This document shows positions 13,235-19,418 of a DNA stretch of 64,000 bases, in pieces. Numbering within the stretch: position 1 is the stretch's first letter; every line of letters begins with the position of its first letter. The stretch is taken from assembly GCF_014138625.1 (NCBI RefSeq), contig NZ_JACJHY010000008.1:62001-126000 (forward strand). The letters run 5' to 3'. This DNA comes from Aminobacter ciceronei. GTDB lineage: Bacteria; Pseudomonadota; Alphaproteobacteria; Rhizobiales; Rhizobiaceae. The position numbers and the translations under genes were made by a program. A model generated the notes under the pieces. That model made no database searches. It was not told where the DNA came from and worked only from the letters and a program-made list of their open reading frames with translations.

Positions 13235-15925
13235 TTACGCGGCGAGGTCGCGCAGAACGTACTGCAGGATGCCGCCGTTCTTGAAGTAGTCGAGCTCATC
13301 AAGGGTATCGATGCGGCAGAGGATCGGAACGTCCTTCACCGAACCGTCGGCGAAGGTGATCTTGGCCACCATCTTCTGGCGCGGCTTGATCGTCTCGAGG
13401 CCGTCGATCGTCACCTGCTCGTCACCCTTGAGGCCAAGTGTCTTCCACGACGTGCCTTCCTCGAAGGTGAAGGGGATCACGCCCATGCCGACCAGGTTCG
13501 AGCGGTGGATACGCTCGAACGACTGGGCGATGACGGCGCGAACGCCGAGCAGGTTGGTGCCCTTGGCAGCCCAGTCACGCGACGAGCCGTTGCCGTACTC
13601 GACGCCGGCGAAAATCACCAGTGGCGTACCTTCGCTGCGATACTGCATGGCGGCATCGTAGATCGGCATCTCTTCCTTGGACGGATAGTGGAAGGTGTAG
13701 CCACCCTCGCGACCGTTCTCGCCCAGCATGTGGTTGCGGATGCGGATGTTGGCAAACGTGCCGCGCATCATCACTTCGTGGTTGCCACGACGCGTGCCGT
13801 ACTGGTTGAAGTCGGCAACGCCGACGCCGTTGTCGGTCAGGTACTTGCCGGCAGGTGAAGCCGCCTTGATGGAACCAGCCGGCGAGATGTGGTCGGTGGT
13901 GATCTTGTCGCCGAACAGGCCGAGCACGCGCGCGCCCTGGATCTTGCCGATCTGGCCCGGCTTCGAGCCCATGCCGACGAAGTAAGGCGGGTTCTGCACA
14001 TAGGTCGACTTGTCGTCCCAGGCATAGGTCTGGCCTTCCGGCGCCTTGACGTTCTGCCAGTTCTCGTCGCCCTTGAAGACGTCGGCATATTTGCGGGCAA
14101 ACAGCTCGCGGGTGACGTTTTCGGCGATGAACTGCTCGATCTCGACATTGGTCGGCCAGATGTCCTTCAGGAACACCGGCTTGCCGTCACGGTCCTCGCC
14201 GATCGGCTCGGAGGTCAGGTCCAGGGTCACAGTGCCGGCGAGCGCGTAAGCGACCACCAACGGCGGCGAGGCCAGGTAGTTGGCCTGCACGTCGGGCGAC
14301 ACGCGGCCTTCGAAGTTGCGGTTGCCCGAGAGCACGGCCGCGCCAATCAGGCCCTTGTCGTTGATGGTCTTGGAGATCGGCGCCGGCAGCGGGCCGGAGT
14401 TGCCGATGCAGGTCGTGCAGCCGAAGCCGACGAGGTTGAAGCCGATCTGGTCGAGCTCCTTCTGCAGGCCCGACTTCTCGAGGTACTCGGCAACCACCTG
14501 CGAACCGGGCGCCAGCGAGGTCTTGACCCACGGCTTCTGCTTGAGGCCGATGCGGTTGGCATTGCGGGCCAGAAGGCCGGCGCCGATCAGCACGCTCGGG
14601 TTCGAGGTGTTGGTGCAGGAGGTGATCGCAGCGATCACCACGTCGCCATGGCCGAGGTCGAACTTTTCACCCTCGACCGCATAACGCTTGGCGGTGTCGA
14701 CGGTCTTCTTGTACTCGGCTTCGAGCGCGGTCGCGAAGCCCGAGGCGATGCCTTCGAGCGGGATGCGGCCTTCGGGACGCTTCGGGCCGGCCATCGATGG
14801 AACGACTGACGCCATGTCGAGCTCGAGCAGGTCGGTGAAGACAGGATCGGCCGACGAAGCGTCGCGCCACATGCCCTGCGCCTTGGAGAACTCCTCGACC
14901 AGTGCAATGCGGTTTTCGGCGCGGCCCGACATGTTGAGATAGCGAATGGTCTCGGAATCGACCGGGAAGAAGCCGCAGGTCGCGCCATATTCCGGCGCCA
15001 TGTTGCCGATGGTGGCACGGTCGGCCAGCGTCATGTTGCTGAGACCGGGGCCGAAGAACTCAACGAACTTGCCGACGACGCCCTTCTTGCGCAGCATCTG
15101 GGTGACGGTCAGCACCAGGTCGGTGGCGGTGACGCCTTCCTTGAGCTTGCCGGTCAGGCGGAAGCCGATGACCTCGGGCAGAAGCATCGAGACCGGCTGG
15201 CCGAGCATCGCGGCCTCAGCCTCGATGCCGCCGACGCCCCAGCCCAGCACGCCGAGGCCATTGACCATGGTGGTGTGCGAATCGGTGCCGACGCAGGTGT
15301 CGGGATAGGCGGTCGTCACGCCATCCTCGGTGTTGGTCCAGACCGTCTGGGCGAGGTATTCGAGGTTGACCTGGTGGCAGATGCCGGTGCCGGGCGGCAC
15401 GACGCGGAAGTTGCGGAACGCCTGCTGGCCCCACTTCAGGAACTTGTAGCGCTCTTCATTGCGCTCATATTCGAGCTCGACATTGCGGGCAAAGGCCAGC
15501 GGGGTGCCGAATTCGTCGACGATGACCGAGTGGTCGATGACGAGGTCGACCGGAACCAGCGGGTTGATCTTCTCAGGGTCGCCGCCCAGGGTCTTGATAC
15601 CGTCACGCATGGCGGCAAGGTCGACGACGGCCGGAACGCCGGTGAAGTCCTGCATCAGCACGCGGGCCGGGCGGTAGGCGATCTCGACGCCGGCGGTGCC
15701 CTTGTCGACAAGCCAGCCGGCAACCGCCTGGATGGCGTCCTTGGTGACGGTGCGGCCGTCTTCGTTGCGCAGCAGGTTTTCCAGCAGCACCTTCATCGAA
15801 TAGGGCAGCTGCGAGATGCCGGTCAGGCCGTTCTTTTCGGCCTCGATGAGGCTGTAATAGACATAGTCCGTGCCTGCAGCGGTGAGCGTGCGGCGGCAAT
15901 TGAAACTGTCGAGTGATTTGGACAC
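13235..15925 (-). CDS. acnA: aconitate hydratase A
   Basis: 896 aa. Isomerises citrate to isocitrate with a [4Fe-4S] cluster. The cluster cysteines are in [11 protein letters not shown] (around residue 440) and [12 protein letters not shown] (around 505-508), as in the AcnA/IRP1 group. [16 protein letters not shown] near the N-terminus, [21 protein letters not shown] and the C-terminal swivel-domain motif [19 protein letters not shown] are also present. Full length. Divergent from ccmA, with an Irr/ICE-like box in the shared upstream region, and followed by a strong terminator. Confidence 0.97.
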
Positions 15926-16128
15926 GTGCGATCCATCCTTGTCTGTTCAGCCTGAAAGGGAACGGACTCCGATGGGCATGCAATCACGCGCAAAGGTGCG
16001 GGTACGGCCATTTCCGCTGTCCGGTCCCAAGCAACCCGAGCCGTTCAAGGCGGCGCGTGCGCTGGTTCGGCGCAAATTCTGTTTCCATGCCGACCGCTGG
16101 CATGGTCGAGTGGCATATAGAGAATTTA

Positions 16129-16144
16129 TTGGAATAGTTCTAGA
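16129..16144. promoter_or_regulatory. candidate Irr-binding ICE-like box between acnA and ccmA
   Basis: On the minus strand the sequence reads TCTAGAACTATTCCAA, which differs at few positions from the TTTAGAA-N3-TTCTAAA inverted repeat I recall for the iron control element bound by Irr in rhizobia. A TATATG -10-like hexamer for acnA lies just downstream on the minus strand. Both flanking genes (an Fe-S enzyme and haem-delivery genes) are plausible Irr targets. Confidence 0.4.
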
Positions 16145-16209
16145 CGGAGATTCGCCTATTTTGCTGCGACGCAAAGCGGCAGCGAGATGGTTTCGGCGAC
16201 GGGGGAAGA

Positions 16210-16821
16210 ATGCGGCTGATCGCCGAAAATCTCAGCGGTGAACGGGGTGGCGAGCCGGTTTTCGAAGACATCGGCTTCACGCTGGAGAACGGCGAGGCGC
16301 TGATCGTCACCGGCCCCAACGGTTCGGGCAAGTCGACCCTGCTGCGCGTCATCGCCGGGCTTTTGCCGCATGCATCGGGACGAATCGGCATCGAGGGCGG
16401 CGGCGAGGAGTTTCCGACCGTTGCCGCAGCCTGCCACTATCTCGGTCATCAGAACGCAATGAAGGCCGCATTGACGGTTCGCGAGAATCTCGAATTCTGG
16501 CAAAGCTTTGCGGGCAGCGGAAAGCTGGGCATTGCTGACGCCCTGGACGATGTCGGCCTCGGCGGCCTCAGCCACCTGCCCTTCGGCTACCTCTCCACCG
16601 GCCAGAAGCGCCGTGCCGCGATCGCCAAGCTGCGCATCAGCCACCGCCCGGTCTGGCTGCTCGACGAGCCGACTGCAGGTCTCGACAAGGCGTCCGACGC
16701 GCGCTTGGCAGGGCTGATGCGGGATCATTGCGCGGCGGGCGGAATCGTCGTCGCCGCGACCCATCTGCCGCTTGGGCTGGAGGGAGTGAAGGCGCTGGAG
16801 ATGGGGCGGGTGCATGTCTGA
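16210..16821 (+). CDS. ccmA: haem exporter ATP-binding protein CcmA
   Basis: 203 aa ABC ATPase of the cytochrome c maturation (System I) CcmABCD complex, which drives release of holo-CcmE. Walker A GPNGSGKST is at residues 35-43, a degenerate signature YLSTGQKRR around 134-142, and Walker B VWLLDEPTAG follows. Length is the usual 200-210 aa. 57 nt upstream of ccmB on the same strand. Divergent from acnA. Confidence 0.95.
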   Translation: MRLIAENLSGERGGEPVFEDIGFTLENGEALIVTGPNGSGKSTLLRVIAGLLPHASGRIGIEGGGEEFPTVAAACHYLGHQNAMKAALTVRENLEFWQSFAGSGKLGIADALDDVGLGGLSHLPFGYLSTGQKRRAAIAKLRISHRPVWLLDEPTAGLDKASDARLAGLMRDHCAAGGIVVAATHLPLGLEGVKALEMGRVHV

Positions 16822-16878
16822 AAACGCTGCCCTTCTTCCCACCCCCCTCTCCGAACAGATCAACGGAAGGCAGCTCCC

Positions 16879-17544
16879 ATGCTAGCCCTCTACCTTCGCG
16901 ACCTACGCATGGGCGTCCGCGCCGGCGGTGGCGCCTTGACGGGCGTGCTGTTTTTCCTCGCCGTCATCGTCACCATCCCCTTCGGCGTCGGGCCCGATCT
17001 CAACCTGCTTGCCCGCATCGGCCCGGCAATTCTCTGGATCGGCGCGCTGCTGGCCAGCCTGCTCGGCCTCGACCGGCTGTTCCAGGCCGACCGCGAGGAC
17101 GGCTCGCTCGATCTTCTGGTGCTCAATGCCGACCGCCACATGCTGGCGCTGACGGTGCTGGTCAAATGCCTGGCGCACTGGACAGCAAGCGTGTTACCTC
17201 TGGTTATCGCAGCCCCCCTGCTTGGCCTGTTCATGAACATGGAGCTCATCGGCATCGGGGCCGCGGCACTCACCTTGCTCGTCGGCACGCCGGCCATCGT
17301 CTTCATCGGCGCGACGGGTGCCGCCGTCACCGTCGCCCTGCCGCGGGGCGGGCTGCTGATCTCGGTGCTGGTGCTGCCGCTGGTCATCCCGGTGCTGATC
17401 TTCGGCGTCACAGCAAGCTACGGTGCTGTCAACGACCCCGACCCGTTCACCCCGCCGTTCCTGATTCTTTGCGCATTGACGATGTTCCTCGCCGTCATCG
17501 GCCCATTGGCGGCGGCGGTTGCGCTTCGCTCGGGCACCGACTGA
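16879..17544 (+). CDS. ccmB: haem exporter permease CcmB
   Basis: 221 aa, six hydrophobic segments. Typical CcmB features: N-terminal LYLRDLRMGVRAGGG, FGVGPDLNLLARIGPAILWIGALLASLLGLDRLFQADREDGSLD, and the LPLVIPVLIFG segment near the end. Start ATG has GGAAGG 8 nt upstream. It is complete at its C-terminus (LRSGTD). The next gene in System I operons should be ccmC, but here ccmD follows after only 120 nt. Confidence 0.95.
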   Translation: MLALYLRDLRMGVRAGGGALTGVLFFLAVIVTIPFGVGPDLNLLARIGPAILWIGALLASLLGLDRLFQADREDGSLDLLVLNADRHMLALTVLVKCLAHWTASVLPLVIAAPLLGLFMNMELIGIGAAALTLLVGTPAIVFIGATGAAVTVALPRGGLLISVLVLPLVIPVLIFGVTASYGAVNDPDPFTPPFLILCALTMFLAVIGPLAAAVALRSGTD

Positions 17545-17638
17545 TCACGTTTCCTTCAACCGCAACGGTGCGGCGCGGCGTCCGATTGCGCAGCGGCAGC
17601 CTCGCCGCTAAGTGAATGACATGCTCGGAAACAGCGAC

Positions 17639-17668
17639 ATGACCACGTCTTGCCAGGGTGCCCGATGA
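17639..17668 (+). pseudogene. possible ccmC remnant (internal deletion scar)
   Basis: Where a roughly 250-codon ccmC is expected there is only a 9-codon frame, ATG ACC ACG TCT TGC CAG GGT GCC CGA TGA. Its stop overlaps the ccmD start as ATGA, exactly as ccmD overlaps ccmG. This is what an in-frame deletion that kept the start and the last codons of ccmC would leave. No WWNTLHQ-type (WWD-domain) sequence is present anywhere in the window. The small frame itself could be coincidental. Confidence 0.4.
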
Positions 17669-17829
17669 GCGCGCATGCCCTCTATGTCACCGCGGCATAT
17701 GCCGTTTCGGCGATTGCCATCGTCGGACTGGTGCTGTGGATTCTTGCCGACCAGCGCGCGCGCAAGCGCGAAATGGCCGAACTTGAGGCCGCCGGCCATC
17801 GCCGTCGCTCGGACAAGGCCAAGGCATGA
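17665..17829 (+). CDS. ccmD: haem exporter protein CcmD
   Basis: 54 aa. Small single-span protein that anchors holo-CcmE release from the CcmABC complex. N-terminal periplasmic ALYVTAAYAVSAIAIVGLVLWILADQ membrane segment followed by the basic cytosolic tail typical of CcmD (RARKREMAELEAAGHRRRSDKAKA region). Its ATG sits in the ATGA overlap with the small residual frame upstream, and its stop overlaps the ccmG start by 4 nt, so operon structure is intact downstream of the missing ccmC. Confidence 0.9.
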   Translation: MSAHALYVTAAYAVSAIAIVGLVLWILADQRARKREMAELEAAGHRRRSDKAKA

Positions 17830-18404
17830 GCACCGACAGCCAGAAGCCGACGGCGCGGCCTCGCAGGCTTATGGTTCTGCTGCCGCTGCTGATTTTCATG
17901 GGCCTCGCCGGCCTGTTTCTGGCGCAGCTGCTGTCCGGCCGCGACCTCACCGCGGTGCCCTCGGCGCTGATCGGCCAGATGGCGCCAGAGACAGACCTGC
18001 CGCCGCTCGAAGGCATGCAGGTTCCCGGGCTGAACTCAGCCGACTTCGCCGGCAAGGTCACGCTGGTCAATGTCTGGGCGTCGTGGTGCGCGCCATGCCG
18101 CGAGGAACACCCGGTGCTGCTCGAACTGTCGAAGGACCAGCGCTTTTCCATCGCCGGCTTGAACTACAAGGACAAGCCCGAGAATGCCCGTCGTTTTCTC
18201 GGCGACCTCGGCAGCCCCTACAAGGCGATCGGCGTCGACCAGAACGGCCGCACGGCGATCGACTGGGGTGTCTATGGTGTGCCGGAGACCTTCCTTCTGG
18301 GCAAGGACGGCAAAGTTGCCTTCAAGCATGTCGGACCGCTGTCGCCGGAGGCGGTGAGCACGACACTCATGCCCGAAATCGAGAAGGCACTGGCGGCGCA
18401 ATAG
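17826..18404 (+). CDS. ccmG: thiol:disulfide interchange protein CcmG/DsbE
   Basis: 192 aa membrane-anchored periplasmic thioredoxin that reduces apocytochrome c. A single N-terminal membrane span (about residues 15-37) is followed by a thioredoxin fold with active site WCAPC (Cys88/Cys91), the cis-Pro segment YGVPETFLLGKDG, and a CcmG-type GLNYKDKPENARRFL insertion. Overlaps ccmD by 4 nt. Last gene of the truncated ccmABDG operon; ccmEFH are not in this window, as is usual for rhizobia. Confidence 0.95.
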   Translation: MSTDSQKPTARPRRLMVLLPLLIFMGLAGLFLAQLLSGRDLTAVPSALIGQMAPETDLPPLEGMQVPGLNSADFAGKVTLVNVWASWCAPCREEHPVLLELSKDQRFSIAGLNYKDKPENARRFLGDLGSPYKAIGVDQNGRTAIDWGVYGVPETFLLGKDGKVAFKHVGPLSPEAVSTTLMPEIEKALAAQ

Positions 18405-18527
18405 ACCGGATCGGGGCCGGCTCGCGCACCACGTGCGAATCATCAAGATTTCAACTACGTTTTCATACAACCGCTGGGGAGAGGCGCGCCGTGAGGGCGC
18501 GACCGGTGGCTGTTGGGGGAGACGTCA

Positions 18528-19418
18528 ATGCAAGACAGTTCCGCGCTCATCATTTTTCTGCCGCTCGCGCTCGGCGTCATCATGCTCGGCCTCGGCCTGT
18601 CGCTGACGACGGAGGATTTTCGCAACGTCCTGCAAAAGCCCAAGGCGGTGATCGTGGCGCTGCTCTGCCAGACCGTCATCCTGCCGCTTGCGTGTCTCGG
18701 CCTGGTCTACGTCTTCGGCCTCGAACCGGCATTGGCTGTGGGCATGATGCTTTTGGCGGCAAGCCCCGGCGGCACCTCAGCCAATCTCTACAGCCACCTG
18801 GCCGACGGCGACGTGGCGCTCAACATCACGCTGACGGCGATCAATTCGGCGCTGTCGATCGTGACGCTGCCGCTGATCGTCAACTGGTCGCTGATGCATT
18901 TCATGTCGGGCGACCAGGCGATCCCGCTGCAATTCGCCAAGGTGATGCAGGTGTTCGTCATCGTGCTCGGCCCCGTGCTGATCGGCATGTGGCTGCGCAG
19001 CCGCTTCCCTGATTTCGCCGAACGCATGGCGCGGCCGGTGAAGATCTTCTCGATGCTGTTCCTGTTCGCCGTGGTTGCCGTGGCGCTCGTGCAGGAATGG
19101 GAAACACTCAAGGCCTGGGGACCGATCGTCGGCCTGGCAGCCCTTGCCTTCAACCTCGTCAGCCTTGGCGTCGGCTATTTCGTGCCCCGCGCCGCCGGCG
19201 TCGAAAAACGGCAGGCCACCGCGATCGGCATGGAGATCGGCATCCACAACGGCACGCTGGCAATCGCCATCGCACTGAGCCCGCTGCTGCTCAACAACGC
19301 GACAATGGCGGTTCCGGCAGCGATCTACGGGCTGATCGCCTTCATCACCGCAGCGATCTTCGGCTACTGGCTGAAGCGGTCGCATGGCCGCGCGACTGCG
19401 ACGATGCCGGTGCACTGA
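18528..19418 (+). CDS. bile acid:sodium symporter / PanS-type transporter
   Basis: 296 aa with about nine membrane spans. The LGLGLSLTTEDFRNVLQKPKAV opening and the SPGGTSANLYSHLADGDVALNITLTAINS core motif are typical of the BASS (SBF-like) family, PanS subgroup; the C-terminal ATAIGMEIGIHNGTLAIAIA matches the sodium-site segment. Substrate may be an organic acid such as a pantoate-like compound, but this is not determinable here. The ATG is preceded by GGGGGAG; a TTG 15 nt upstream is less likely. A bidirectional hairpin region follows. Confidence 0.9.
   Translation: MQDSSALIIFLPLALGVIMLGLGLSLTTEDFRNVLQKPKAVIVALLCQTVILPLACLGLVYVFGLEPALAVGMMLLAASPGGTSANLYSHLADGDVALNITLTAINSALSIVTLPLIVNWSLMHFMSGDQAIPLQFAKVMQVFVIVLGPVLIGMWLRSRFPDFAERMARPVKIFSMLFLFAVVAVALVQEWETLKAWGPIVGLAALAFNLVSLGVGYFVPRAAGVEKRQATAIGMEIGIHNGTLAIAIALSPLLLNNATMAVPAAIYGLIAFITAAIFGYWLKRSHGRATATMPVH

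Follow-up and report, generated by a model that had tools for sequence, protein, structure and literature searches.

A relocated ccmC and a conserved short frame ahead of ccmD in Aminobacter and related rhizobia

The ccm genes of the window and the location of ccmC

The window, that is the whole stretch of 64,000 nucleotides of Aminobacter ciceronei DNA that was analysed, carries part of a System I operon for the maturation of c-type cytochromes. The genes ccmA, ccmB, ccmD and ccmG are all intact, and each of them scores above the cut-off of its NCBIfam model (the ccmA, ccmB, ccmD and dsbE models). The features of the locus are as follows.

13235-15925, minus strand: acnA, divergent to ccmA
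16210-16821, plus strand: ccmA, haem exporter ATPase (TIGR01189, 227.5 bits, cut-off 131.6)
16879-17544, plus strand: ccmB, haem exporter membrane subunit (TIGR01190, 256.1 bits, cut-off 156.2)
17586-17591, plus strand: -35-like box TTGCGC of a putative former ccmC promoter; a similar pair with N17 spacing stands before ccmC at both of its locations and in related gaps
17609-17614, plus strand: putative -10-like box TAAGTG, ending 6 nt before ATG 17621
17621-17668, plus strand: 15-codon stub frame, MLGNSDMTTSCQGAR followed by a stop, predicted to be leaderless, putative ccmC remnant; its stop overlaps the ccmD start
17639-17668, plus strand: 9-codon frame of an earlier note on this DNA, equal to codon 7 to the stop of the stub
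17665-17829, plus strand: ccmD (TIGR03141, 53.7 bits, cut-off 25.95)
17826-18404, plus strand: ccmG, DsbE family thiol:disulfide oxidoreductase (TIGR00385, 180.8 bits, cut-off 123.15)

The ccmB stop (17544) is separated from the ccmD start (17665) by 120 nt that contain no ccmC. The earlier note had read the locus as ccmA-ccmB-(120 nt)-ccmD-ccmG with ccmC absent, and the gene calls and the NCBIfam scores agree with this. Compared with the System I ccmABCDG operon of alphaproteobacteria, the window shares the order acnA-ccmA-ccmB-ccmD-ccmG, but in the source genome ccmC alone lies outside the operon, behind chvA, and its position is taken by a 15-codon stub. The 9-codon frame that had been noticed in the gap is present, from ATG 17639 to TGA 17666-17668, but the start lies earlier, at ATG 17621, which gives 15 codons. 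Its TGA overlaps the ccmD ATG (ATGA 17665-17668), as had been described, in the same manner as the ccmD TGA (17827-17829) overlaps the ccmG ATG at 17826. The stub and ccmD thus have the geometry of a coupled pair, in which the upstream stop overlaps the downstream start.

The source genome is a 6.77 Mb draft assembly in 96 contigs. PF01578 has two matches in it, one on contig C28, which is CcmF, and one on contig C4. The latter is an intact CcmC of 254 aa (L002:1303-2067, minus strand), and it gives the only match to TIGR01191 in the genome (274.7 bits, cut-off 186), which places it in the CcmC family. Residues 12-233 align to residues 6-225 of the solved CcmC 7f02_C with an E value of 1.4e-64, including the sequence WGTWWVWD. 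A tryptophan-rich WWD motif defines the CcmC family. The gene lies directly behind chvA and ahead of a nitronate monooxygenase-like gene. Among the explanations offered in the earlier note was that ccmC had moved elsewhere, and the genome-wide search that it proposed found just this, one intact ccmC on another contig. We regard the relocation of ccmC as close to certain, and it is an ordinary event.

The other System I genes are also in place. Contig C28 carries CcmE, CcmF, the N-terminal CcmH and the C-terminal part of CcmI together, and the System I set is therefore represented by ccmA, B, D and G in the window, C on contig C4, and E, F, H and I on contig C28. Since ccmC and ccmI, E, F and H are present, a maturation defect does not follow from the sequence, and the failure of c-type cytochrome maturation that had been feared loses its ground. 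What looks like a fatal loss from an operon for respiratory assembly is here an old, shared relocation, and recognizing it guards against a wrong loss-of-function annotation.

Distribution and history of the arrangement

The same arrangement is found in the relatives. Among 10 Aminobacter genomes, 9 have ccmB and 9 have ccmC. All nine ccmC loci have the gene behind chvA, and at all nine ccmB loci ccmD follows ccmB without ccmC. The tenth genome (G157, 81% complete) matches neither ccmB nor ccmC, likely because it is incomplete. In the genus of genome G073, probably Mesorhizobium, ccmB is present in 61/61 genomes and ccmC in 60/61. There is no ccmC between ccmB and ccmD at any of the 30 ccmB loci fetched from this genus, and chvA is upstream of ccmC in 28/30 fetched loci (in the 1.5 kb retrieved for each). 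An assembly error or a ccmC deletion peculiar to the strain, as the earlier note had also considered, might be suspected in a draft of 96 contigs. However, the junction is common to 9/9 Aminobacter and 30/30 G073-genus ccmB loci, several of them on single-contig genomes, and an intact ccmC lies elsewhere in the genome. We therefore reject this explanation with near certainty.

The wider family was sampled with 151 genomes, and the places of both ccmB and ccmC are listed for 149. The two genes are adjacent (within 500 nt, on the same strand) in 101 of the 149, on one contig but otherwise placed in 28, and on different contigs in 20. The position of ccmC next to chvA is found in 15/149 family genomes. 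Among the named loci, 12 of 80 have it, and they belong to Aminobacter, Mesorhizobium and one Hyphomicrobiales MAG. Mesorhizobium sp. L-8-3 has kept the operon arrangement.

Other departures from the operon were seen in this sample. Many of the 28 genomes with non-adjacent genes on one contig (e.g., G027, G037, G052 and G099) have 0.5-5 kb between ccmB and ccmC, as if this junction tolerated insertions. In G022, G033, G083 and G131 (L065-L067, L069), ccmC-ccmD-ccmG left ccmAB as a block, and in G102 (L068) ccmC and ccmG are together with no match to ccmD. Two ccmC matches each were found in G128 and G132 in the family search.

The chvA-linked state does not come out as a single clade in our trees, which join two or three genes or use CcmC alone. 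It needs five changes on the AcnA+CcmA+CcmB tree and four on the RpoB+AcnA tree, where the AU p value of 0.048 is near 0.05. On the CcmC tree it also takes four changes, and this tree is compatible with one origin. A duplicated ancestor with differential loss, a reversal or a transfer are each possible histories. In six readable operon-state relatives no CcmC match remains behind chvA (the contig of a seventh ends there), and the promoter-like pair described below is absent from the first 300 nt behind chvA in the same six.

A promoter-like pair and a conserved short frame

A pair of boxes, ATTGC(G/C)-N17/18-TATNTA, stands upstream of ccmC at both of its locations, relocated and operon, and in most cases 6 or 7 nt lie between its end and the ccmC ATG. 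With the start chosen to fit, it is found at 59/61 relocated and 17/17 operon loci. The consensus was drawn after part of the loci had been seen, and those unseen at that time are only the ccmC loci L210-L248, where 37 of 39 have the pair, and a fresh set of 30 genomes described below. A score with fixed spacing is passed by 49 of the 50 relocated and 22 of the 29 operon ccmC loci, with seven operon loci lacking the pair; some genomes are counted here in more than one locus. Letter shuffles pass this score in 24/10000 cases for the relocated and 56/5800 for the operon loci. Among the control genes it is passed by ccmA in 2/128, ccmB in 0/135, ccmG in 0/132 and ccmD in 0/110 cases, and by acnA in 0/118, chvA in 0/39 and the monooxygenase in 0/13. 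A plain scan for E. coli-style sigma-70 promoters finds none in 16000-18600 of the window, and in such a scan TTGCGC at 17586-17591 is no match to the consensus.

The spacing between the pair and the ATG suggests that transcription starts on or beside the ccmC ATG and that the mRNA is leaderless. In Sinorhizobium meliloti, 171 leaderless start sites have been mapped, all starting with AUG, and the promoter search in that work allowed 5-12 nt from the promoter end to the start site (PMC3616915). The 6-7 nt found for ccmC are within this range, though ccm genes are not named in the relevant passages of that paper. We infer that ccmC is one of these leaderless genes, and the pair would mark it as a separately promoted unit. 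This could matter for the cell. Excess CcmB expels haem, and complexation with CcmACD is a safeguard (PMC11868835), and therefore a ccmC expression split from that of ccmAB could be of consequence.

A similar pair has also stayed behind at the old position. We collected 50 ccmB-ccmD gaps, from 15 family genomes, 6 more Aminobacter and 29 more genomes of the genus of G073, and all of them had been viewed before they were scored. The pair is in 50/50 gaps at a lenient threshold, at which it is also found in 1310 of 5000 shuffled gaps. An ATG follows the -10 box by 5-8 nt in 38 of the 50 gaps. Each of these 38 ATGs runs in frame, over 13-25 codons, to a stop that shares an ATGA or GTGA with the ccmD start, as against 24 of 140 shuffled gaps with such an ATG. 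One short frame alone is unremarkable, but its presence across relatives is beyond chance. When the 38 are placed on a CcmA/B/G tree, the stub changes its length at least 16 times, always by whole codons and never with the frame broken. The spacing between the ccmB stop and the stub ATG, in contrast, changes modulo 3 at least 15 times. The same rules were applied to the fresh set of 30 further genomes. There 26 gaps are coupled, one with a frame of only 7 codons, and 2 of 28 ATGs are uncoupled (the frame stops 1 nt before ccmD in L279 and 62 nt before it in L303). In the remainder, L297 is without the pair and the region fetched for L290 is too short.

The peptide itself behaves differently from the frame. 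Between the members of 28 similar pairs of stubs, 49, 76 and 52 differences fall on the first, second and third codon position. By this spread the peptide is seemingly free while the frame is held, and selection on its amino acids, which would concentrate differences at third positions, is not supported. Probably the stub peptide is irrelevant, and the frame is what is kept.

These data have to be weighed against a simpler explanation. Following a plain relocation, the promoter may still drive ccmD-ccmG, with the short frame being unselected debris and ccmD using its own ribosome-binding site. In support of this, a Shine-Dalgarno core stands before ccmD in 27 of the 38 coupled gaps, 12 of the 50 gaps do without the ATG (two of these, G134 and G067, have by eye a slightly displaced in-frame ATG), and the differences by codon position show no conservation of the peptide. 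Debris is not expected to keep the frame between ATG and overlap in all 38 cases through so many frame-preserving changes of length, and the Shine-Dalgarno core is present in only 2/9 Aminobacter junctions, the one in the window not among them. We consider this explanation unlikely, though it deserves to be kept in mind. Because of the Shine-Dalgarno core, coupling may be dispensable in the 27 gaps that have it. Where the ATG is missing, a Shine-Dalgarno site was expected to replace the stub, but the core is found in 3 of those 12 gaps, against 27/38 of the coupled ones. We favor a selected frame.

Origin and proposed role of the stub

It is likely that the stub derives from ccmC. In 10 of the 14 operon-state relatives inspected, the stop of ccmC and the start of ccmD share the same kind of overlap. 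In Mesorhizobium composti the stub (L182, picked by eye) reads MSDTTRTGPGWTAIA, compared with MSDTTSRFSGWNDLA in a related ccmC. This stub agrees with ten ccmC 5' ends at 18-24 of 42 nt, and codon shuffles do as well in 1-224 of 5000 cases. It agrees with the ccmC of its own species at 23 of 42 nt, which shuffles equal in 16/5000. The window's own stub has no comparable likeness to ccmC in the comparisons made. An in-frame deletion that left the start and stop of ccmC, as the earlier note had suggested, is thus the probable origin, since the gap still has the promoter-like boxes, the start position and the overlap at the stop, and the stub of one relative resembles a ccmC 5' end. Separately, a match of the 3' ends of stubs to the C-terminus of ccmC (AER-type tails), judged by eye, is suggestive only.

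We propose the following mechanism, which builds on the observed gene positions and the observed conservation of the frame and the boxes. The ancestral ccmC would have been a leaderless gene, coupled to ccmD through ATGA. It would have been moved or copied along with its own promoter, from which transcription would begin at or immediately beside the ATG. In-frame shortening of the old copy would then have spared the promoter, a start codon where ccmC used to begin and the TGA overlapping the ATG of ccmD. A ribosome may load on the leaderless ATG 17621, read 15 codons, stop at 17666-17668 and restart at the ccmD start at 17665. The coupling of the stub to ccmD would in this way replace the coupling of ccmC to ccmD in the ancestral operon. 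We give the whole account, in which ccmC was relocated with its promoter and a leaderless stub starts ccmD translation, a probability of about two thirds. The transcription start, the translation of the stub and the re-initiation in this account are predictions from sequence.

The new part of the account is the retained leaderless stub. Its conservation as a frame has good support, and its mechanism is a prediction. With a confidence only a little above even, we suggest further that a gene has been reduced here to its initiation function. A leaderless start, 7-25 free codons and the overlapping stop would be kept by selection as a ribosome-loading device for ccmD in several genera. Should the stub act in this way, it would offer a natural case for comparative study in which only the translation start of a gene is left, and rhizobia would allow a direct test of leaderless initiation with termination-reinitiation.

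Instead of being a simple coupling device, the stub could be a regulatory leader peptide or attenuator that senses haem or an amino acid. A precedent exists in rhizobia, peTrpL of S. meliloti, a leaderless leader peptide of 14 aa (PMC10117765), and our stub is of similar size, is also rhizobial and is also predicted to be leaderless. In addition, several Aminobacter stubs contain one Cys. However, peTrpL is part of a tryptophan attenuator (PMC10117765), whereas no attenuator-like structure was found at the stub. The region 17621-17720 has no stable RNA structure (z 0.89; 162/200 shuffles fold at least as well), and there is no terminator-like site at or near the stub. The lack of clustering of differences at third codon positions also speaks against a sensing peptide. 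We consider a leader role improbable and favor coupling to ccmD.

A second parallel is known from E. coli, where mRNAs with a 5'-terminal AUG that opens a short upstream frame have been described (Beck et al. 2016, PMC4965119). The stub likewise has an AUG at a predicted 5' end, and its short frame precedes a cistron that it may influence, as such frames may in E. coli (PMC4965119). It differs in that it is apparently what is left of a whole gene and that its stop overlaps the next start. A search of the open-licence literature found no title on a moved rhizobial ccmC or on a stub before ccmD in these bacteria.

Some of the gaps contain inserted DNA. An Imm50 immunity-protein gene (PF15594, 52.3 bits) lies between ccmB and the stub in L014 (4855-5247), the only copy scanned, and by eye the same insert is in L021, L191, L193, L194, L199, L204 and L208. 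The six loci of the genus of G073 that carry this insert are missing the leaderless ATG. In L185 and L188, whose gaps measure 262 and 270 nt, inspection by eye shows a common insert of about 140 nt between ccmB and the stub. Parts of it look palindromic, and it may be a dispersed repeat.
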